From NCBI RefSeq assembly GCF_020731415.2, contig NZ_CP088273.1, positions 3,353,001-3,417,000 on the forward strand: a DNA stretch of 64,000 bases, read 5' to 3'. This document shows positions 15,950 to 60,890 of this stretch, in pieces. The position numbers were made by a program, and so were the translations under genes. The notes under the pieces were generated by a model. The model saw nothing but the letters and a program-made list of their open reading frames with translations, did no database searches and was not told the DNA's origin. The stretch's first letter is position 1; every line of letters starts with the position of its first letter. The DNA comes from Phyllobacterium sp. T1293. Lineage in GTDB: Bacteria; Pseudomonadota; Alphaproteobacteria; Rhizobiales; Rhizobiaceae.

Positions 15950-16218
15950 GCTTGGCCGAACCCATCAGGATAATAAGGCGAGGATAGGTAATTCCGTTAA
16001 ATATGAGGCATCTGCCATAAGTTTCGTCAATGATCGATGAAAATTTGGTGAAAAATTTCGCGCAGAGTATGCCAGCAAATGTGAAGCCGCTGTTTGCAGT
16101 AAAAAAGCTGTTGCTTTCTTTAACGCAGACGTTACGTGTAAAGAAGTTGGGGTAAATGGGAACCGGATAAAAAAACCGGATAAGAAACTTCCCAATGAAA
16201 ATGAGGGGTATCGTTGCG

Positions 16219-27220: not shown

Positions 27221-27322
27221 ATGTCGGTCTATCCCCGTTGCTAATGCCTCGCGCCCTTAAATTAAAACTGAGAGCGCGATGACTTTGTTTAGTGCCGATT
27301 GCAGATAACGGTGTTCTGGTTG

Positions 27323-27451
27323 GTGGTTCGACAAGCTCACCATGAGGGAGAGGGGTGATGTAAGGGAGCCATATTCTGCACCCTTTGCGCTGCAATCTCT
27401 CCGATTATCGTTGCATCCACACTCTCCCTCATGGTGAGCTTGTCGAACCAC
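27323..27451. repeat. inverted-repeat element with perfect 30-bp arms
   Basis: Arms 27323-27352 and 27422-27451 are exact reverse complements of each other; each contains GTTCGACAAGCTCACCATGA. About 69 bases lie between them. The transcript could form a long hairpin in the 393-base gap between pyc and the DeoR gene. A short repeat with this core is widespread in alphaproteobacterial intergenic DNA. The rest of the gap shows no gene. Confidence 0.85.
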
Positions 27452-27613
27452 GAACCATAACCACCTCTCATCACCCAACATAACACTCGCGTGCCCATTT
27501 GTGCGCATATCGGCATAAACAGGCGTTGAAAATAAACCATATGTGCAATATGGTGCGTGCAATTAATGTTCTGTGCCGAGCGCAGAACCGCGCGCTTACA
27601 GAGTATTGCCATA

Positions 27614-41079: not shown

Positions 41080-41805
41080 ATGACCAAAACGGCAATCGTT
41101 ACGGGTGGAACACGTGGTATCGGCGCAGCCATATCCGTGGCTCTGAAAGCGGCAGGTTACAAGGTCGCGGCAAATTACGCTGGCAATGATGATGCGGCGA
41201 AGAAATTTACGGAGAAGACCGGCATTGCGACTTATAAGTGGGATGTTTCCAACTATGAGGAATGTGCGGCAGGTATCGCCAAGATCGAAGCGGATCTTGG
41301 TCCGGTTTCCGTACTGGTCAATAATGCGGGTATCACCCGCGATGCCATGTTCCACAAGATGACGCCGGGCCAGTGGGGCGAGGTGATCAATACCAATCTC
41401 ACCGGCCTCTTTAACATGACCCATCCTGTTTGGACGGGTATGCGCGACCGCAAATTCGGCCGGGTGATCAATATTTCCTCGATCAACGGTCAGAAAGGTC
41501 AGGCCGGACAGGCCAATTATTCCGCGGCTAAGGCGGGTGATATTGGCTTCACCAAGGCATTGGCGCAGGAAGGTGCTCGTGCGGGCATCACCGTTAATGC
41601 CATCTGCCCCGGCTATATCGGAACAGAAATGGTGCGGGCTATCGACGAGAAGGTTCTCAACGAGCGTATCATTCCGCAAATCCCGGTCGGTCGTCTGGGT
41701 GAACCGGAAGAAATCGCGCGCTGTGTCGTGTTCCTTGCTTCTGATGATGCGGGTTTCATCACAGGCTCGACACTATCAGCCAATGGCGGGCAGTATTTCA
41801 GCTGA
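41080..41805 (+). CDS. phaB: acetoacetyl-CoA reductase
   Basis: NADPH-dependent reduction of acetoacetyl-CoA to (R)-3-hydroxybutyryl-CoA, the PHB monomer. The 241-residue short-chain dehydrogenase carries TGGTRGIGAAISVALKAAG, NNAGITRDAMFHKMTPGQW, the Ser in INISSINGQKGQAGQ and YSAAKAGDIGFTKALAQE. These are PhaB-specific (NAGITRDxxFHKM). AGGGAGGGG lies before the ATG. It completes the phaAB pair; a terminator follows. No phaC gene is in the window. Confidence 0.96.
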   Translation: MTKTAIVTGGTRGIGAAISVALKAAGYKVAANYAGNDDAAKKFTEKTGIATYKWDVSNYEECAAGIAKIEADLGPVSVLVNNAGITRDAMFHKMTPGQWGEVINTNLTGLFNMTHPVWTGMRDRKFGRVINISSINGQKGQAGQANYSAAKAGDIGFTKALAQEGARAGITVNAICPGYIGTEMVRAIDEKVLNERIIPQIPVGRLGEPEEIARCVVFLASDDAGFITGSTLSANGGQYFS

Positions 41806-41824
41806 TCCGATGTTAAATCGAATG

Positions 41825-41854
41825 ACGCCGCAGGCTGGAGACAGTCTGCGGCGT
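41825..41854 (+). terminator. terminator of phaAB
   Basis: Perfect 9-bp stem ACGCCGCAG (41825-41833) / CTGCGGCGT (41846-41854), 12-base loop, followed by a T-rich run (TTCTATTTT). Confidence 0.65.
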
Positions 41855-41973
41855 TTCTATTTTCTGCGCCGGTGATTCCCGTTTCTACGATCAGAGGTTA
41901 ACGGTTTTGCCTGAATCTTGTCCTATTTCAGTTCACCATCAGAGGCGATTGGTGCGAGTCCCGCTCGAGTCGC

Positions 41974-42039
41974 ACTAGATGTAGCCGTGAACAAAACGGG
42001 AAAACGAGTAAAGCGCTGATTCGTCGCTGATTCGTTCTG
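41974..42039. repeat. 66-bp direct repeat, copy A
   Basis: Begins ACTAGATGTAGCCGTGAAC and ends with two tandem 11-mers of the form GCTGATTCGTY. It is matched by copy B exactly 282 bp downstream: the first 29 bases agree at 25 positions, the last 25 are identical, and the ~12-base middle differs although its length is the same. Confidence 0.85.
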
Positions 42040-42255
42040 GCTTTGATCGTAATGTTAACGGAAAAGGCCATTTGAGCCTTGCATAGCTTAACTAAGTGTA
42101 AGGAAATATTACTGTTTTCTTAATTCGACTAGAGACCAGCGCCATATGGTTGGACTTGCAAAGTCACGAAATTTCAAAGGTTAATACGGGAACGCAGATT
42201 CAAGGGATTCTCACGATCATCGATTCAGCATCTTGTACGACTCTCGTCGTAGAAA

Positions 42256-42321
42256 ACTAGATATGGCCGTGAACAAAGCAGGAATCTGGTCCTATAGCTG
42301 ATTCGTCGCTGATTCGTTCTG
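42256..42321. repeat. 66-bp direct repeat, copy B
   Basis: Begins ACTAGATATGGCCGTGAAC and ends with the same tandem GCTGATTCGTY 11-mers as copy A. It carries an additional GAATC at 42282 in the variable middle. A small dyad (TACGAC..GTCGTA) lies just before it, as a different dyad does before copy A. Confidence 0.85.
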
Positions 42322-42488
42322 CTCGCGTTCTATTTCTTAATGGAACACTCCGTGAATCGGTTCGCAATTGTTTATCTTGAGGTCGCCGCATACTTTCTGT
42401 CTGATACCGATAATGCTATCGGATAGTGCATGCCCGGCATGCCTTGCTGGTTTTGGTAAGGCCGTCGTGCCGGTGTTGGATATTTTTG

Positions 42489-45400
42489 ATGAACCTTATG
42501 CCTACCCCCGAACTTCCTCTGATCCTGAGCGGTCGTGACGTCACCGCCGTTCTGGGGCCGACGAACACGGGCAAGACTCACCTCGCCATTGAGCGGATGC
42601 TGGCGCACCAGACAGGCATGATTGGCCTGCCACTGCGCCTGCTGGCGCGCGAAGTCTATAATCGTGTGGCCGAACGGGTCGGGCTTGCCAATGTTGCGCT
42701 GATAACAGGCGAAGAAAAGATTCAGCCACCCGGCGCGCGTTATGCGGTTTGTACTGTCGAGGCGATGCCACGTCAGACCGATGTGGACTTCGTTGCCATT
42801 GATGAAGTTCAGCTCGCCAATGATCTTGAACGCGGCCATATCTTTACAGACCGCATCCTGCATCTGCGTGGGCGTCAGGAAACGCTGCTGCTGGGCGCGG
42901 CAACCATGCGCGGCATACTGGAAAAGCTGCTGCGCGGCATTTCCGTCGTCACCCGTCCGCGCCTGTCCAATCTCGCCTATGCGGGCTCCAAGAAAATCAC
43001 ACGCCTGCCACCGCGCACGGCCATCGTCGCCTTTGCTGCCGATGAAGTCTATTCCATCGCCGAACTGATCCGCCGCCAGAATGGTGGCGCGGCTGTGGTT
43101 ATGGGGGCTTTGAGCCCGCGCACCCGCAATGCGCAGGTGGACCTCTATCAATCGGGCGATGTGGATTATCTGGTGGCGACCGATGCGATTGGCATGGGGC
43201 TCAATCTCGACGTTGATCATGTCGCTTTCGCACAGGACCGCAAATTTGACGGTTATCAGTTCCGCGATCTGTCGCCGGGCGAAATTGGCCAGATTGCCGG
43301 GCGTGCCGGTCGGCATTTGCGCGATGGTACATTTGGCGTCACCGGGCAGGTCTCCGGTTTTTCCGAAGAGCTGGTACAGCGGGTGGAATCGCACAATTTC
43401 GATTCGGTCAAGATTTTGCAGTGGCGCACGGCACGGTTTGACTTTTCCAGTATCGATGCATTGAAGCGGTCGATTGATACGCCCGCACCGGTTGAGGGAC
43501 TGACGCGCGCACTACCTGCGGTGGATCAGCAGGCGCTCGAATATCTGTCAAAAGACCCTGATATTGCCCCGCTGGCCAATACGCCGGAACGGGTGGCATT
43601 GCTTTGGGATGTCTGCGCCTTGCCGGACTACCGGAAAATTGCGCCTGCTCAGCACGCCGATATCATCGCATCGATCTATACAGACCTCGTGAAACATGGT
43701 CATGTCAACGAAACCTACATGGGCGAACAGGTACATCGGGCTGATACGACCGATGGTGATATTGATGCTTTGTCGCGAAGGATCGCCCAGATCAGAACCT
43801 GGACTTTTGTGTCTCATCGGCCCGGATGGCTGGCAGATCAGGCACATTGGCAAGAAAAGACGCGTGAAATTGAGGACAGATTATCAGATGCACTGCATGA
43901 ACGGTTGACGAAACGCTTCGTAGACCGCAGGACAAGCGTGCTTATGAGGCGCCTGAGAGAGAATACAATGCTAGAAGCCGAAATTAGCCCTGCCGGGGAC
44001 GTTGTTGTCGAAGGGCACCATGTTGGACGTTTGGATGGATTCCGTTTTACGACGGACAGCCAGATTGATGGAACCGATGCAAAAGCCGTGAAGGCCGCTG
44101 CACAGAAAGCCTTGGCGACAGAGTTCGACAATCGCGCCGAGCGCTTTGCCGCCTCCGCGAATGGCGATTTTGCTCTTGCCTCGGATGGGACGTTGCGCTG
44201 GATTGGCGCGCCTGTTGCCTCCGTGGTCTCGGGCGAACAGCCATTGAAGCCCCGCGCGGTGCTTCTGGCCGATGAGCAGTTGACGGGACCGGCACGCGAC
44301 AAGGTTGCTGCGCGTGTTGACCGCTTCCTTGCCCATCATGTGGATACGGTTCTCAAACCGCTGGTCGATCTTGCCAATGCCGATGCGCTGGTGGGGATCA
44401 CGCGGGGACTGGCGTTTCAGCTGGTTGAAAACTTTGGCGTGTTGCAGCGCCGGGATGTGGCCGAGGACGTTCGCGGTCTCGATCAGGATTCGCGCGCAGC
44501 GCTCCGCCGTCTTGGCGTGCGCTTCGGTGCCTATCATGTTTTCCTGCCTGCCTTGCTCAAGCCTGCGCCCGCGGGTCTTCTGACGCTGCTATGGGCGCTC
44601 AAGGAAGATGCCAAGGATCGTCCGGGTTACGGCGATGTCGTGCAGGTGCTTTCCGCAGGTCGCACGTCGGTTGTAACCGATCCTGCTTTCGATCCATCCT
44701 TTTACCGCCTTGGCGGGTACAGGCTGCTCGGACGGCGCGCAGTGCGCATCGATATTCTCGAGCGTCTGGCTGATCTTATCCGTCCGGCACTGGCGTGGAA
44801 GCCGGGTGTGGGAACACGGCCCGATGGCGCTTATGATGGCACCCGTTTTGTCGTTACGCCTGCGATGATGTCCATTCTCGGTGCAACTGCCGACGATATG
44901 GAAGAAATCCTGAAGAATCTTGGCTATCGCTCGGAAGCAACCGATGCGACCGTGGTATCCGCCAAGGTTGCCGAGCTTGATGCGGTGGCCCAGACAACTG
45001 CACCGCAGGAAACGGCAAAAGTTGCGTCAACCACTCCAGCAGCTGAACCGGTCGGCGATCCGATTGTCAAACCAGTGGTTGAGGCTGTGGAAGCGGTTGC
45101 GGTGGCGGTAGCAGAAGAAGCATCCGCGCCTGTTGCTGAAACTGCGGCAGCTCCTGCAGTTGCGGAAGAGGCTCCCAAGCCTGTTCTTCTCTGGCGTCAG
45201 GCTCCCCGCTTTGAAGGCCGCCACAACAACAATAATCGCCGTTCGCAGGGTGCGCGTGAGAATCAGCGTGAGCCGCAGGCTCGCAATGGCAACGCACCGG
45301 GTGAAGAGCGCCAAGGTCGCCCGAACCGCAATGCCGGTCCGCAGGGCGAGCAGCGCGGCGAGCGCAGGGATTTCCGTGGCAAGGGCGGCAAGCCTGTTGG

Positions 45401-45551
45401 AGCTGACCGCTTCAAACAGGATGGCGGCAAGCCATCCGGTAAACCTCAGCAGCACGGTAAGCGGCCGGAACATGAAGAGCGGCCGGTCAAGATCGACATG
45501 GACTCCCCCTTCGCCAAATTGCTGGCGTTGAAGGAGCAGATGAAAAAGTGA
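42489..45551 (+). CDS. Suv3-like DExH-box helicase with disordered RNA-binding tail
   Basis: A 1020-residue superfamily 2 helicase related to mitochondrial Suv3. Walker A GPTNTGKTHLA (Lys 29), DEVQ box AIDEVQLAND, ATDAIGMGLNLDVD and IGQIAGRAGRH (motif VI) lie in the first ~280 residues; Suv3-type C-terminal regions follow. Residues from about 820 form an acidic Ala/Val/Glu segment, and from about 910 an Arg/Asn/Gly-rich tail (HNNNNRRSQGARENQ) ending in the conserved DSPFAKLLALKEQMKK. I start at ATG 42489; ATG 42498 is equally possible. It should unwind RNA, perhaps with a ribonuclease. The next gene is an S4 RNA-binding protein 14 bases away. Confidence 0.9.
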   Translation: MNLMPTPELPLILSGRDVTAVLGPTNTGKTHLAIERMLAHQTGMIGLPLRLLAREVYNRVAERVGLANVALITGEEKIQPPGARYAVCTVEAMPRQTDVDFVAIDEVQLANDLERGHIFTDRILHLRGRQETLLLGAATMRGILEKLLRGISVVTRPRLSNLAYAGSKKITRLPPRTAIVAFAADEVYSIAELIRRQNGGAAVVMGALSPRTRNAQVDLYQSGDVDYLVATDAIGMGLNLDVDHVAFAQDRKFDGYQFRDLSPGEIGQIAGRAGRHLRDGTFGVTGQVSGFSEELVQRVESHNFDSVKILQWRTARFDFSSIDALKRSIDTPAPVEGLTRALPAVDQQALEYLSKDPDIAPLANTPERVALLWDVCALPDYRKIAPAQHADIIASIYTDLVKHGHVNETYMGEQVHRADTTDGDIDALSRRIAQIRTWTFVSHRPGWLADQAHWQEKTREIEDRLSDALHERLTKRFVDRRTSVLMRRLRENTMLEAEISPAGDVVVEGHHVGRLDGFRFTTDSQIDGTDAKAVKAAAQKALATEFDNRAERFAASANGDFALASDGTLRWIGAPVASVVSGEQPLKPRAVLLADEQLTGPARDKVAARVDRFLAHHVDTVLKPLVDLANADALVGITRGLAFQLVENFGVLQRRDVAEDVRGLDQDSRAALRRLGVRFGAYHVFLPALLKPAPAGLLTLLWALKEDAKDRPGYGDVVQVLSAGRTSVVTDPAFDPSFYRLGGYRLLGRRAVRIDILERLADLIRPALAWKPGVGTRPDGAYDGTRFVVTPAMMSILGATADDMEEILKNLGYRSEATDATVVSAKVAELDAVAQTTAPQETAKVASTTPAAEPVGDPIVKPVVEAVEAVAVAVAEEASAPVAETAAAPAVAEEAPKPVLLWRQAPRFEGRHNNNNRRSQGARENQREPQARNGNAPGEERQGRPNRNAGPQGEQRGERRDFRGKGGKPVGADRFKQDGGKPSGKPQQHGKRPEHEERPVKIDMDSPFAKLLALKEQMKK

Positions 45552-45970: not shown

Positions 45971-46282
45971 TTTGCGACAAAAAATGCGGGAATATCGAAA
46001 TTCTCTCCCAATTCGTCGGCGGGGCTAAAATAATATTTCCAGAATACCTATATTAGGAGGCAATGGTTGCTTGTCGGCGGGTCATCGCGATGCGATGAAT
46101 GGCACTCTGCGGACTTGAACATTGGCTCATGTCCTGATGTGATGAAGACAATCCTTTGCACGTCGAGATTTTTCGGGCCGCGTTCTGGTGCCGCAGTCCG
46201 TTCTTCCCCTCTTGTCAGCCCGGTGCCAAATCGTTACCTCAACCGCTGACACACTGACTATGGTGTCTTCAGGAGCCAGTAA
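45971..46282. other. intergenic region before fdxA
   Basis: A 312-base gap. AGGAGGCA followed by ATG at about 46063 opens a frame of only 11 codons, too short to call. I see no tRNA, terminator or clear promoter. The fdxA ribosome site (CAGGAGCC) is at the right end. Confidence 0.4.
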
Positions 46283-54987: not shown

Positions 54988-56805
54988 ATGGCTCCTCCAC
55001 TTCTTCGTCTTGACCGGATTGCATTGACGTTTGGCGGCACACCGCTTTTGACCGATGCGGCTATTTCCGTCAGCGAGGGCGACCGTATCGCCCTTGTTGG
55101 CCGCAACGGTTCGGGCAAGTCAACCTTGCTGAAAATCGCGGCGGGCTTTATTGCGCCAACCGACGGCGAAGTGTTCCGCCACCCCGGCGTGACGGTTCGC
55201 TATCTGGCTCAGGCGCCCGATATGGAAGGCTTTGCCAATGTCCGCGACTATGTTGAAGCAGGTCTTGGACCGGCGGATGATCTCTACCGGGTCAGTTACA
55301 TCCTCGAACATCTCGGCCTGACTGGAGAAGAAAAGCCTGACAATCTGTCGGGCGGCGAAGCGCGCCGTGCGGCATTGGCCAAGGTTCTGGCACCGCAGCC
55401 GGATATCCTGCTTCTCGATGAGCCAACCAATCATCTGGATTTGACAACCATTGAATGGCTGGAAGGTGAACTCAGGCAGATCCGCTCCAGTATCGTGGTC
55501 ATCTCCCACGACCGGCGCTTTCTCGAAAACATCAGCCGCTCCACTGTCTGGCTTGATCGCGGTGTTACGAAACGGCTCGATCAGGGTTTTGGCGCCTTCG
55601 AAGAATGGCGCGACAAGGTGCTTGAGGAAGAAGAGCGCGATCTGCACAAGCTTGGCCGCCAGATCGTGCGCGAAGAACATTGGTTACGGTACGGCGTTAC
55701 GGCACGGCGCAAACGCAACATGCGCCGCCTCGGCGAGTTGCACACGATGCGCGGCGAATTCCGCAATCATCGCCGCGCGCAGGGAACGGCGGTTCTTAAA
55801 GCCAGCGACAGCAAGGAATCCGGCAAGCTGGTCATTGAGGCGGAACATCTGGTCAAGGCTTACGGCGAGCGCGTGCTCGTCAAGGATTTCTCCACCCGTA
55901 TCCAGCGCGGCAACTGTGTCGGCTTTGTTGGCCCGAACGGTGTTGGCAAGACCACGCTTCTCTCCATGCTGACGGGTCTGCTGGCACCCGATAGCGGTTT
56001 TATCCGTCTCGGGACCAATCTCGAAATTGCTGTGCTTGATCAGAAGCGCGATAGTCTCAACCTTGAGCAGACGCTTTCCGATTATCTGACCGATGGTCGC
56101 GGCGAGAATGTCATTGTCAATGGCGAGCAGCGCCATGTGGCGTCCTATATGAAGGACTTCCTGTTCCAGCCGGAGCAGCTGCGCACGCCGATCCGCGAAC
56201 TCTCCGGTGGTGAAAGGGCGCGGCTGATGCTGGCGCGCGTCCTCGCGCGTCCGGCCAATCTGCTGGTACTCGACGAGCCGACCAACGATCTCGATATGGA
56301 AACGCTTGATCTCCTGCAGGAGCTGGTTTCCGGTTTTGCCGGAACGGTGCTGCTGGTCAGCCATGATCGCGATTTCCTTGACCGTACCGTAACGTCAGTG
56401 ATCGCGCCTGAGGGCGATGGCCGCTGGCTGGAATATGCTGGTGGGTATACGGATATGCTGGCACAGCGCAAGGAAGCGCTGGCGACGCGCAAAGACCTTA
56501 AGGCAACCAAGCCACAAACGTCTGCCGATGCCTCCGGTGAAAAGCCAACGGCGCAGCGCGAGGAAAAGCGCAAGCTTTCCTACAAGCAGAAATTTGCGCT
56601 GGAGAATCTGCCGGGCAAGATGGAGGCATTGCACGCCGATATCCACAAGCTTGAGGCGAAGCTGGCTGACCCCAATCTTTTTGCCAAGAACCCGCAGCTT
56701 TTCAACAAGACAGTCGAGGAGATCGGCAAAAAACGGCATGACCTCGAACGTTTCGAGGAAGAGTGGCTGGAACTCGAAATGCTGCGCGAGGAAATCGGCG
56801 GCTAG
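54988..56805 (+). CDS. ABC-F family ATPase (Uup-like)
   Basis: A 605-residue soluble tandem ABC ATPase of the ribosome-associated ABC-F family. Walker A motifs are GRNGSGKSTLLK (~residue 40) and GPNGVGKTTLLS (~315), signatures NLSGGEARRAALAKVLA and ELSGGERARLMLARVLA, Walker B LLLDEPTNHLDLTT and LVLDEPTNDLDMET. The linker (EEEERDLHKLGRQIVREEHWLRYGVTARRKRNMRRL) is the P-site tRNA interaction motif region. The basic segment after residue 510 leads to a Uup-type C-terminal coiled coil. No membrane partner, as expected for ABC-F. Confidence 0.93.
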   Translation: MAPPLLRLDRIALTFGGTPLLTDAAISVSEGDRIALVGRNGSGKSTLLKIAAGFIAPTDGEVFRHPGVTVRYLAQAPDMEGFANVRDYVEAGLGPADDLYRVSYILEHLGLTGEEKPDNLSGGEARRAALAKVLAPQPDILLLDEPTNHLDLTTIEWLEGELRQIRSSIVVISHDRRFLENISRSTVWLDRGVTKRLDQGFGAFEEWRDKVLEEEERDLHKLGRQIVREEHWLRYGVTARRKRNMRRLGELHTMRGEFRNHRRAQGTAVLKASDSKESGKLVIEAEHLVKAYGERVLVKDFSTRIQRGNCVGFVGPNGVGKTTLLSMLTGLLAPDSGFIRLGTNLEIAVLDQKRDSLNLEQTLSDYLTDGRGENVIVNGEQRHVASYMKDFLFQPEQLRTPIRELSGGERARLMLARVLARPANLLVLDEPTNDLDMETLDLLQELVSGFAGTVLLVSHDRDFLDRTVTSVIAPEGDGRWLEYAGGYTDMLAQRKEALATRKDLKATKPQTSADASGEKPTAQREEKRKLSYKQKFALENLPGKMEALHADIHKLEAKLADPNLFAKNPQLFNKTVEEIGKKRHDLERFEEEWLELEMLREEIGG

Positions 56806-56854
56806 AGCAGTTTCCGTTTAAACAGGGCTGCTCCAGCTTCGTTACCTAACGATC

Positions 56855-57220
56855 TTAATTGGCCTTTGGCGCAATCTTTGCAGCGAGGTTCTCGATACGG
56901 GTTGTGACCTCGGAAAGAACACCTGTTATTGCCGTGTCGTTCTTATCTGCTTTTTGCAGAGCCTCGTCACGGCTCTTGCGCAGGGCATCGGCTTCGTTTT
57001 CAAGGCCTTTCACGCGCATCTGCAATTCGTGCAATTCATCCGTGATCATAATGCCAGCCATGACAGTCAGGCGCAGGTCACCAATTTCACCAAATGATGA
57101 TTTAAGGTGCGTAACGTAACGGTCGAACCGTTCGGCAAGGCCAGTCAGGTGTTGCTCCTGGCCTTCGTCACAGGCCATCCGGTATGCTTTGCCGTCAATC
57201 GTAACTGTTACAGTGGCCAT
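56855..57220 (-). CDS. zapA: cell division protein ZapA
   Basis: A 121-residue FtsZ-ring-associated protein. The N-terminal ZapA globular part (ATVTVTIDGKAYRMACDEGQEQHLTGLAERFDRYV, residues ~2-36) is followed by a long helix and coiled coil (DELHELQMRVKGLENEADALRKSRDEALQ), as expected for the dimer-tetramer. The ATG at 57220 is the family start, with AAAGAGA upstream. It follows the DUF4164 gene by 27 bases. 6S RNA and ygfA, which often follow zapA in proteobacteria, are not here: a convergent ABC-F gene is 50 bases away. Confidence 0.93.
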   Translation of the reverse strand: MATVTVTIDGKAYRMACDEGQEQHLTGLAERFDRYVTHLKSSFGEIGDLRLTVMAGIMITDELHELQMRVKGLENEADALRKSRDEALQKADKNDTAITGVLSEVTTRIENLAAKIAPKAN

Positions 57221-57247
57221 GGTCGTCTCTTTCAACTGATGTCGATA

Positions 57248-57520
57248 CTACCGGTCCAGTACGGTGCGAATGGATTCCATCGCCGTTACGAGACGGCGAG
57301 AGACTTCCTTGTTTGCCGCTTCCAGACGTTCTGCACGTCCTTCCGATGCATCCAGCTCCTGTGCCAGCCTTCGCCGGTCCATGTTCATGCGCTGGACTTC
57401 TTCCTCAGCTTCGGCAAAATCACCTTCCTGCTCAAGGCGCATATCAACAGCGTCCTCAAGATGAGCCAAGGCTTTTGCCAGTCTTTCCAGAACCTGTTTG
57501 AGGGTGGCTTCCTCTGCCAT
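57248..57520 (-). CDS. DUF4164 small coiled-coil protein
   Basis: A 90-residue protein, almost entirely alpha-helical coiled coil (LERLAKALAHLEDAVDMRLEQEGDFAEAEEEVQRMNMDRRRLAQELD, then EGRAERLEAANKEVSRRLVTAMESIRTVL). I start at the ATG at 57520 (MAEEATLK), preceded by AGGGGAAA; the upstream continuation is unlike a protein. The DUF4164-zapA pair is conserved in Rhizobiales, which suggests a cell-division or ZapA partner role, not shown here. Confidence 0.8.
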   Translation of the reverse strand: MAEEATLKQVLERLAKALAHLEDAVDMRLEQEGDFAEAEEEVQRMNMDRRRLAQELDASEGRAERLEAANKEVSRRLVTAMESIRTVLDR

Positions 57521-57827
57521 TTTCGTGTTTCCCCTGTGTGTCGCTCTTTTACGCGAATCGCAAAAAGAAGAACAACTTATGCGCCGAAGTCTAGAGGGCA
57601 CATCAACACCGCGTCAATCAATCCACGCTGTCACAGTTCGGTCATGCACTGATAATAGAACGAGAGAGGGCCTATGCGACGAAAGAGCCCGCTTTTCGAA
57701 CGCTCCATTTTGACTTAGGTTTTATTGACTCCCTGATGACACCTGCTATGTGTCGCGTGCCTTTTGGATTTTGTCTGAACCGGCGTCCAGAAACGGCATT
57801 TCCTATCCTCTTCGAAAGACGGTACAC
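57521..57827 (+). promoter_or_regulatory. tkt upstream region with candidate promoter
   Basis: A 307-base divergent gap between DUF4164 and tkt. TTGACT (57725-57730) and TATGTG (57747-57752), spaced 16 bases, point toward tkt about 75 bases on. Nothing else recognisable. Confidence 0.4.
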
Positions 57828-59813
57828 ATGACCAATTCTGAAAAATCAAACCAAATGGCCAATGCAATCCGCTTTCTGTCGGCGGATGCAGTGGAGAAGG
57901 CCAATTCTGGCCACCCCGGCCTTCCCATGGGCGCAGCCGATATTGCGACCGTTCTCTATACCCGTTTCCTCAAGCATGATCCGAAAGCGCCGCATTGGCC
58001 TGACCGTGATCGCTTTGTCCTTTCCGCAGGACACGGCTCGATGCTGCTCTATTCGGTGCTCTATCTTTCCGGTTACGAAGACATCACCATCGACCAGATC
58101 AAGAATTTCCGCCAGCTTGGCTCGCGCACAGCCGGCCATCCGGAATATGGCCACGCCGCTGGTATCGAAACCACAACAGGCCCGCTCGGTCAGGGTCTGG
58201 CCAATTCTGTCGGCATGGCGCTTTCCGAGCGCGTGCTGAACGCTGAGTACGGCGATGATCTGGTAAACCACCATACCTATGTGATCGTGGGTGACGGTTG
58301 CCTCATGGAAGGCATCAGCCAGGAAGCCATTGCGCTTGCCGGTCATCTGAAGCTGAACAAGCTCATCGTTTTCTGGGACCACAACAACATTTCCATCGAT
58401 GGCCCCGTGTCACTCGCTGACAATACGGACCAGTGCGCCCGTGTTGAAGCATCAGGCTGGAATTCCATTAATGTGGACGGCCATGATCAGGATGCAATCG
58501 CCGCTGCGATCGAAAAGGCCCATAAATCAGACAAGCCAACGCTGATCGCCTGCAAGACGACAATCGGTTTCGGTGCGCCGACCAAGGCCGGCACCAACAA
58601 GGTCCATGGTTCGCCGCTGGGTGCGGAAGAACTCGCCGGTGCCCGCAAGGCGCTGGGCTGGACATCCGAGCCCTTCGTGGTTCCTGCTGATATTCTTGAT
58701 ACATGGCGTCTTTCCGGCCTGCGTTCCGCTGGGGAACATGCGGCATGGGACAAGCGTCTGGCCGCCGCCGATGCGGAAATTCGTGCGGAGTTCGACCGTC
58801 GCATGCGCGGCGATCTGCCCGGTAATTTTGATGCCACCATCATTGCCTACAAGAAGAAGCTTTCGGAAGACAAGCCGAAGGTTGCTACCCGTAAATCATC
58901 GGAAATGGCGCTTGAGGTCATCAATGCCGTCGTCCCCGAAACCATTGGCGGCTCTGCTGATCTGACCGGTTCCAACAACACCAAGACCAGCCAGACGCAG
59001 AACATCAGCCCTGATGATTACGGTCAGCGTTATGTTCATTATGGCATTCGCGAGCACGGCATGGCTGCTGCCATGAACGGTATTGCGCTGCATGGCGGTC
59101 TCATTCCCTACTCCGGCACGTTCCTTACATTCTCGGATTACGCGCGCGGTGCGATGCGTCTTTCGAGCCTGATGGGCATCCGGGTCATCTATGTGATGAC
59201 ACATGATTCCATCGGTCTGGGTGAGGATGGTCCGACGCACCAGCCGGTTGAACATCTGGCTGCGCTGCGTGCCATTCCGAACAATTACGTGTTCCGTCCG
59301 GCCGATGCCGTCGAAACTGCCGAGTGCTGGCAGCTGGCGCTGGAGTCGCGCAAGACACCGTCGACACTGGCGCTTACACGTCAGAACTTGCCGACAGTCC
59401 GCACCGTGCATGTGGACGAGAACAAGTGCGCCTATGGTGCCTATGAACTCGCTGCAGCAAGCGGCAAGGCGGAAGTGACGATTTTTGCGACCGGTTCGGA
59501 AGTCGAGATCGCTCTCGCCGCCCGCGCGCAGCTGGAAGCGAACGGCCATCCGGCCCGCGTTGTGTCCGTGCCCTGCTTCGAACTTTTCGAACAGCAGAGT
59601 GAAGACTACAAGCGTGCCCTGCTTGGTGATGCGCCAGTCAAGGTTGCGGTGGAAGCTGCAATTCGCCTCGGTTGGGACCGTTTCATCGGCATTGACGGCA
59701 TCTTCGTCGGCATGACGGGCTTTGGTGCCAGCGGCCCGATTGAAGAGCTATACAAGCATTTCGGTATTACAGCGGAAGCCATCGTTTCGGCGGCAGAAGG
59801 CAAGTTGAAATAA
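57828..59813 (+). CDS. tkt: transketolase
   Basis: TPP-dependent enzyme of the pentose phosphate and Calvin-type pathways, moving two-carbon units between sugar phosphates. The 661-residue protein has [36 protein letters not shown], the TPP motif [20 protein letters not shown] through to [11 protein letters not shown], then [38 protein letters not shown] and the C-terminal domain. The ATG at 57828 ([18 protein letters not shown]) matches homologues; the open frame extends upstream without support. It is followed by gap after 69 bases. Confidence 0.97.
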
Positions 59814-59882
59814 TCGGCGGTTTACCGCTTAAGCAAGGGCGCCCAGGGTCTTGACCCTCAACCCCCAAGGAGAAACTAAAAA

Positions 59883-60890
59883 ATGACTGTTCGCGTTGCA
59901 ATCAACGGGTTTGGCCGTATTGGCCGCAATGTTCTTCGCGCTATTATCGAGTCCGGCCGCACTGACATTAAAGTCGTCGGCATCAATGATCTGGGTCCAG
60001 TCGAAACCAATGCGCATCTGATGCGCTATGACTCCGTGCATGGCCGCTTCCCCGGTACTGTTACGGTATCCGGCGACACCATCGATGTTGGTCAGGGTCC
60101 GATCAAGGTAACTGCGGTGCGCAACCCGGCAGAATTGCCCTGGAAAGAGCTTGATGTTGATATCGCGCTTGAATGCACCGGTATCTTCACGGCCCGCGAC
60201 AAGGCTGCGGCTCACCTTGAAGCCGGTGCCAAGCGCGTCATCGTTTCGGCTCCCGCTGACGGTGCTGATCTGACCGTTGTCTTCGGTGTGAACCATCACA
60301 AGCTGACCAAGGAGCATCTGGTTATTTCCAATGCATCCTGCACCACCAACTGCCTTGCACCAGTTGCCTTTGTGCTCAACGAAGTTGTAGGCATTGATCA
60401 TGGTTTCATGACCACGATCCACAGCTATACCGGTGATCAGCCGACGCTCGACACGATGCACAAGGATCTTTATCGCGGCCGCGCTGCTGCTCTGTCGATG
60501 ATCCCCACCTCAACCGGTGCTGCCAAGGCCGTTGGCCTTGTTCTGCCAGAACTCAATGGCAAGCTTGACGGCAGCTCGATCCGCGTTCCAACCCCGAACG
60601 TCTCGGTTGTGGATTTCAAGTTCGTTGCCAAGCGTGCGACAACCGTTGCCGAGATCAATGATGCGATCAAGTCGGCTGCCAATGGCAAGCTCAAGGGTGT
60701 TCTTGGTTATACGGATGCGCCGAATGTCTCCATCGACTTCAACCATGATCCGCATTCCTCCATATTCCATCTCGACCAGACCAAGGTGATGGACGGAACT
60801 TTTGTGCGCGTACTGTCGTGGTACGACAATGAATGGGGCTTCTCGAACCGCATGGCCGACACGGCTGTCGCGTTCAGCAAGGTCATTTGA
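59883..60890 (+). CDS. gap: glyceraldehyde-3-phosphate dehydrogenase, type I
   Basis: A 335-residue glycolytic/gluconeogenic enzyme. NAD site [18 protein letters not shown], the catalytic Cys in [19 protein letters not shown] (about residue 154), [35 protein letters not shown] and [15 protein letters not shown] are present. [28 protein letters not shown] fits the class found in Rhizobiales, whose carbon flow is mainly gluconeogenic on organic acids. AAGGAGAAA lies before the ATG; a strong terminator at 60914 follows. Confidence 0.97.

Follow-up and report, generated by a model that had tools for sequence, protein, structure and literature searches.

The dense cluster of GANTC sites between phaB and a Suv3-like helicase gene is, in the reading that we favor at a little better than even confidence, the methylation-site footprint of a tandem two-module cis-regulatory array that would control transcription of the helicase. 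In our alignments the modules are defined by their sequence, near-rigid internal spacing, wide conservation across the order, orientation and linkage to the helicase gene. By that measure they are a real and strongly conserved array, putatively cis-regulatory, and no description of such an element was found in the open-access literature that we searched. From motif content we infer that the array is probably read by GcrA/CcrM and by LexA or a LexA-like protein.

Results

A preliminary description of the window (the whole 64-kb stretch of DNA analysed here) reported 14 GANTC sites within 41874..42358, and our recount confirmed every one of them, at 41874, 41913, 41956, 41967, 42018, 42029, 42197, 42206, 42222, 42239, 42282, 42300, 42311 and 42354. 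About two had been expected by chance, in line with the 1.8 that independent bases predict; dinucleotide shuffling of the 485-bp stretch (n=2,000) gave a mean of 3.06 sites and a maximum of 9. The three pairs spaced at exactly 11 bp, the three 43-bp intervals and the lack of any GANTC in each of three control gaps (15950-16218, 27221-27613 and 45971-46282) were likewise exact. Over the entire window there are 112 GANTC against 283 expected, which indicates that the sequence is otherwise avoided there, and the runner-up 485-bp stretch has four sites. Comparable clusters were absent from a sample of 20 stretches of 20 kb each (400 kb) on the same contig of the 5.07-Mb genome (maximum 7 per 485 bp; 1.47/kb). 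The densest stretch of that sample, with seven sites per 485 bp, is L146:16488-17111, at approximately 3.656 Mb. Stretch L127 (contig C1, 1-20000) has a GC content of 0.41 against about 0.55 in most samples, which suggests an island or mobile region. GANTC-N6-GANTC occurs 23 times in the whole genome, three of these in the phaB-helicase gap, and there is no second genomic copy of the gap taken whole.

The gap proper begins after a terminator-like hairpin and contains a module of approximately 90 bp twice, at a spacing of 282 bp (Table 1). The module consists, in order, of a dyad of the form CNANATNTNG, GAACAAA-N4-GAA, YGATTCG, GTTC and TTAA, and the proximal copy adds a second GTTC 11 bp on, which yields GTTC-N7-GTTC. 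The GANTC repeats of the gap coincide with GAAC/GTTC half-sites 11 bp apart. Internal spacing was established on what we call the 81-locus set, namely the window plus the best 80 of 516 confirmed loci from a scan with the helicase N-terminus, which we treat as close relatives. Module copies were collected from these loci (81 proximal, 67 distal) by a core pattern with up to 3 mismatches, so that part of the invariance within the core stems from how the copies were chosen; that pattern does not cover GAACAAA, the dyad or the second GTTC. With the core GATTCGTCGCYGATTCGTTC at 0 to 19, the ungapped offsets are -43 to -34 for the dyad (proximal copy), -29 to -16 for GAACAAA-N4-GAA, +27 for the second GTTC (proximal copy) and +37 for TTAA, and GAAC, GATTCG and GTTC occupy near-fixed offsets in 59 aligned copies.

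Table 1. Features of the phaB-helicase gap and its downstream gene (positions in the window)
Feature	Position	Strand	Basis or remark
Intrinsic-terminator-like hairpin 3' of phaB	41824..41855	+	14-bp stem and T tract; consensus match only
Distal module, copy 1	41973..42062	+	70.7 bits with model R1 (copy used to build R1); alignments
Dyad site CTAGATGTAG (form CNANATNTNG), distal copy	41975..41984	+	Sequence and alignment
GAACAAA-N4-GAA box, distal copy	41989..42002	+	Fourth base of second half-site not C
Core GATTCGTCGCTGATTCGTTC, distal copy	42018..42037	+	Two YGATTCG, 11 bp apart
GTTAAC 3' of distal core	42054..42059	+	
GATTCAGCAT block 5' of proximal module	42222..42237	+	
Proximal (terminal) module, copy 2, nearest the helicase	42255..42344	+	65.0 bits with R1 (copy used to build R1); alignments
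Dyad site CTAGATATGG, proximal copy	42257..42266	+	Sequence and alignments
GAACAAA-N4-GAAT box, proximal copy	42271..42285	+	
Core GATTCGTCGCTGATTCGTTC, proximal copy	42300..42319	+	
SOS-box-like GTTC-N7-GTTC (GTTCTGCTCGCGTTC)	42316..42330	+	Same offset in nearly all terminal copies
Candidate helicase promoter, CTTTCT-N17-CTATCG	42393..42421	+	By eye from alignments
Suv3-like DEAD/DExQ helicase, putative target	42489..45551	+	PF22527, E 1.1e-27

The putative target encodes 1,020 aa; its best PDB sequence matches are Suv3/SUPV3L1, and an NCBIfam search gave no match. Genes for an S4 protein, a ferredoxin and a CarD-like protein follow it in that order. Among the best 80 of 516 loci, those highest in helicase identity are from Phyllobacterium (99% and 98%). 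phaB lies upstream of the modules in the window and in several close relatives. Elsewhere a DUF3108-type gene takes this place, in 9 of the 20 context loci described below and also in L153, L154, L169, L170 and L174; the domain was confirmed for two of the proteins. A sigma-70 consensus scan of 41780-42520 returned no promoters. A conserved CTTTCT-N17-CTATCG begins 73 bp 3' of the proximal core, and its candidate -35 lies 62 bp beyond the end of the SOS-like box. Three other candidates were dropped on comparison with known motifs by eye: EcfG-type GGAAC...CGTT promoters, CtrA half-sites at TTAAC and a DnaA-box-like TGTGGAT/GGTGGATAA near the distal module. The last of these is visible just upstream of the distal module in L047, L086 and other Mesorhizobium loci, and none was noticed in the displayed Phyllobacterium and Brucella rows.

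The preliminary description had named conservation of the sites in close relatives as a check. GANTC clusters do recur before the helicase, with at least five sites in the approximately 920 bp preceding the helicase match at 77 of 78 loci (the 80 relatives minus L037 and L052, whose counts were misplaced; the exception, L081, has one), but not all of the 14 sites are conserved. The slots conserved beyond the genus account for six (42018, 42029, 42222, 42282, 42300 and 42311), and the other eight are less widely shared. What is conserved is the pair of modules (41973-42062 and 42222-42344, the latter with block 42222..42237 included) rather than the 14 sites as such. At least two copies were detected by pattern in 67 of the 81 loci, window included, at spacings of 271-284 bp in 66 and 241 bp in one.

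Conservation extends well beyond close relatives. A 20-base pattern, one mismatch being allowed, was found in 26 of 297 genomes of the order, with zero for the reversed control among the matches listed. R1, a sequence-only model built from 59 module copies, matched 150 of 199 order genomes (76 of 100 genera), each between one and six times; eight of the 150 (source genome included) had supplied sequences to the model, and the filters used in the search lose weak matches. The helicase lies directly downstream on the same strand at 19 of 20 context loci, which cover 16 families and were chosen from the matches listed so that none had been used for building R1; in the exception, L221, none lies within the 7 kb of the locus. 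At three f4 loci, from genomes of 1.3-1.4 Mb, 24-25 bp separate the end of the single module from the earliest plausible start codon of the helicase gene. An f40 genome has four tandem modules, 224-233 bp apart, upstream of the helicase (L148:4030-4799; L148 contains N bases). Two small genomes, G164 (f1, 1.5 Mb) and G066 (f21, 1.4 Mb), have no module match.

For comparisons outside the 81-locus set we used 28 terminal copies, hand-chosen from 17 families (nine from model-building loci) and anchored by script on GATTCG, with none failing, and alignment A2, which has 38 of 39 rows after removal of the overlapping minus-strand L215:3458-3517. These other-family copies come from a model that was itself built on such copies, and related sequences among them are not independent. 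We do not rely on helical phasing between modules, which is weak outside the 81-locus set. Within that set spacings fall at 271-274 (38), 280-284 (28) and 241 bp (1), giving R 0.87 at 10.5 bp, a pattern that may stem from one or two inherited indels. Other-family spacings (n=31, omitting the 805 bp of L157 and those of L153, L154, L174 and L175-L179) give R 0.03, 0.29 and 0.38 at periods of 10, 10.5 and 11.

Distal copies are not always found with the helicase. In family f27 two genomes have a DUF3108-type gene and the helicase on separate contigs, each gene with module copies next to it: two and two, respectively, in G249, and three and one in G165. The three DUF3108-linked copies of G165 are situated between convergent genes and face a cysN/cysC-type gene. 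In the f50 genomes one weak copy accompanies DUF3108, and several, some of them weak, accompany the helicase. The f27 arrangement implies that distal copies are not simply the helicase promoter, and such copies can persist, at least for some time, where they are unable to drive the helicase.

Separation of this kind would also be expected of a chromosome landmark, that is, of modules that bind a replication, segregation or nucleoid protein and have the helicase merely as a stable neighbor. We consider this account unlikely. The gene hemE is a stable neighbor of oriC, and by distance from it the locus is origin-proximal in the source genome (0.15 of the half contig), in G136 (0.16) and, for the helicase, in G198 (0.35); by distance from the skew switch it is so in G175 (0.25). 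These four are the genomes in which position could be judged, GC skew in G035 and G019 being too weak to place the origin. A landmark would also fit the tandem rigid modules at one locus of the source genome (two R1 matches), with their GANTC and TTAA blocks. Against this, skew is positive on both sides of the locus with no switch there, and hemE lies at differing distances from the module or helicase (282, 495, 530, 555 and 932 kb); in G198, 12 kb separate hemE from the copy that adjoins DUF3108. Linkage to the helicase and orientation, moreover, recur in many families, with the module close to the start codon in reduced genomes. In the source genome the skew switches between 3.0 and 3.2 Mb, hemE is at 3.113 Mb and the array is at 3.395 Mb. 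The suggestion in the preliminary description of a replication landmark is not supported on this point, with the GC-skew switch and hemE some 282 kb away, and an origin or terminus was rejected as the main reading on the same two grounds. Taken in 4-kb blocks, the window shows negative GC skew once, at 56001-60000 (-0.016).

The constant orientation of the modules relative to the helicase, in the loci examined, is one of the observations that could point instead to RNA. The conserved stretch would then be transcribed, for example as a pair of sRNAs or as an autoregulatory 5' leader of the helicase, and the f4 module is close enough to the gene to serve as such a leader. Consistent with this idea, the proximal consensus folds at -2.07 (forward) and -3.27 (reverse) kcal/mol against -0.02 (sd 0.08) for column shuffles, and two of 23 inverted-repeat pairs exceed shuffles (55 against 46 of 81 and 42 against 27 of 67). 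However, most of the 23 pairs are near or below the column-shuffle expectation, and an early impression of covariation in a CATNTGG...CCANAT inverted repeat was mostly not borne out by the shuffles. Distal copies give no fold (0.0), and the candidate promoter is downstream of the modules. The cross-family alignment gives a consensus energy of -0.04 kcal/mol, with double changes in none of four predicted pairs, although these pairs hardly vary and so test little. Eight loci yielded no Rfam family at the gathering score; the window region gave a single sub-threshold, chance-level match (20.3 bits against 81). With the fold results and the lack of an Rfam family, the RNA evidence is weak and an RNA role less likely; as a full explanation we judge it quite unlikely.

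We return to the reading of the modules as protein-binding sites. GTTCN7GTTC is given in PMC6237742, in the section cited, as the alphaproteobacterial LexA SOS-box consensus. The preliminary description made no mention of this box in the gap. Of 109 terminal copies, 106 have it at an identical offset: 81 of 81 in the 81-locus set and 25 of 28 from other families (16 of 19 where the locus lay outside R1 building). Among distal copies it occurs in 2 of 67. A left box is less complete. In the 81-locus set the full GAAC-N7-GAAC is restricted to one of 81 proximal copies and two of 67 distal ones, the fourth C being missing in nearly all; it is perfect in several f27, f28 and f40 copies. GAACN7GAA is found in 79 of 81 proximal boxes and 21 of 28 from other families, and GAAC at -29 in all 67 distal copies. 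Sites of the form GAACAAANNNNGAAC occur in the source genome, with GAACN7GAAC upstream of lexA and recA; GAACAAA resembles the first half of several of its GAACN7GAAC sites. Genome-wide, GAACN7GAAC is no commoner (59 and 84) than its reversed control (68 and 77), so that one occurrence means little and it is conservation that counts as evidence.

Could the array be an SOS operator and nothing else, with the GANTC sites incidental to GAAY/RTTC half-sites repeated at 11 bp? The near-universal terminal box argues for this, as does the presence of LexA in the source genome (E 8.7e-16). LexA was found in 17 of 20 genomes tested, and G066 has neither a LexA match nor a module match. Yet perfect boxes are rare in distal copies (left and right, 2 of 67 apiece; 81-locus set), G164 has LexA and a PF01555 methylase without a module match, and the conserved YGATTCG is left unexplained. 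We therefore regard LexA acting alone as an improbable account of the array.

YGATTCG is the sole near-universal GANTC of the module. It stands at core offset 0 in 81 of 81 proximal copies and 38 of 38 A2 rows; at least one YGAKTCG is present in 66 of 67 distal copies (81-locus set), and GATTC in 28 of 28 other-family terminal copies, which the script had anchored on GATTCG. CcrM is encoded in the source genome, as had been presumed, by a 377-aa ORF in L239 (E 6.8e-165 to CcrM structure 6pbd). PF01555 methylases matched in all 20 genomes tested (E approximately 1e-65 or better; CcrM identity checked for the source genome), and absence of the enzyme is therefore unusable as a test. The passages cited from PMC7987155 give YGAKTCG as an extended motif for GcrA activation in Caulobacter and state that it was not observed in Brevundimonas. 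GcrA ChIP-seq peaks in Brucella are enriched 4.4-4.7-fold in GANTC, as reported in the cited part of PMC6813329, and the over-representation of GANTC in alphaproteobacterial intergenic DNA is already known from the corresponding part of PMC3973325.

The central proposal of the preliminary description was a methylation-timed switch. In its pure form the GANTC sites would be selected as methylation targets and phased to count or sense hemimethylation, and besides the presence of CcrM it can draw on the 14 sites against a shuffled maximum of 9 and on slot +22, where GANTC is kept while N alternates between C and G (52/12; other families 11/3). The proposal is partly supported: the cluster exists, it is conserved and tied to the helicase, and nearly every copy has YGATTCG/YGAKTCG. 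Methylation as the main driver is not supported. Our reasoning for this is that: (i) N of the core is invariably T in the 81-locus set (148 of 148 copies, among them all 67 distal ones), while distal cores retain the A in 59 copies and the C in 56, the reverse of the pattern expected under selection for CcrM recognition alone, so this recognition by itself is not what is conserved; (ii) slots -18 and +11 likewise have a fixed N while specified bases vary; (iii) the 11-bp GANTC pair is found in 75 of 81 proximal copies of the 81-locus set and in 5 of 28 from other families and (iv) fewer than two GANTC are present in 23 of 38 A2 rows. The GATTCAGCAT block contains GANTC in 72 of 81 copies of the 81-locus set against 5 of 28 in other families. 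The pure switch is in our estimation very unlikely. GANTC clustering mainly reflects protein-site architecture, and methylation at the locus may be one input.

Discussion

A plausible scenario, built from motif content and arrangement, is that GcrA would bind CcrM-methylated YGATTCG and that LexA or a LexA-like protein would bind GTTC-N7-GTTC. A dimer or oligomer could read the 11-bp-spaced GAAC/GTTC half-sites and another dimer the dyad, with GcrA, or the methylation state of YGATTCG, modulating the complex. The terminal copy would act on the helicase promoter, whereas upstream copies might add occupancy or looping. Under such an arrangement helicase output would be tuned by cell-cycle methylation and DNA damage.

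Methylation sites grouped near regulator sites have precedent, although none of the four kinds of system compared here matches this one fully. The pap-type epigenetic switches have clustered Dam GATC sites, and here too a cluster of methylation sites overlaps regulator-like boxes upstream of one gene. Unlike those switches, the present array is conserved across many families, N is mostly fixed and there is no evidence of bistability. Origins of the RctB/iteron type carry methylation sites inside 11-12-bp repeats; the 11-bp repeats described here also contain a methylase site, but the array has no origin signature and precedes a helicase gene. In the case of GcrA/CcrM promoters of Caulobacter and relatives, as far as they are described in the cited parts of PMC7987155, PMC3667746 and PMC6813329, the likeness lies in an encoded CcrM and a YGATTCG that fits YGAKTCG. 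The difference from those promoters is that the modules form a rigid multi-site array without a recognisable -10 beside the site, at which GcrA would putatively bind. With LexA SOS operators, to the extent covered by the cited section of PMC6237742, the terminal module shares the exact consensus at a fixed offset; here, however, the box sits inside a larger module, the left box is imperfect (81-locus set) and no recognised promoter is there.

A broader and distinctly more tentative proposal is that the modules represent an order-wide, unrecognised composite operator of one to six repeats, which would join CcrM/GcrA cell-cycle signals and LexA damage signals to control a bacterial helicase related to the mitochondrial RNA helicase SUV3. 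As the locus shows, much of a GANTC cluster can arise as a side effect of how protein sites are arranged. The near-rigid spacing of the modules across many families, down to genomes of 1.3 Mb, points to strong selection on control of the Suv3-like helicase. If GcrA/CcrM and LexA both read the array, it would directly connect cell-cycle methylation with DNA-damage control.
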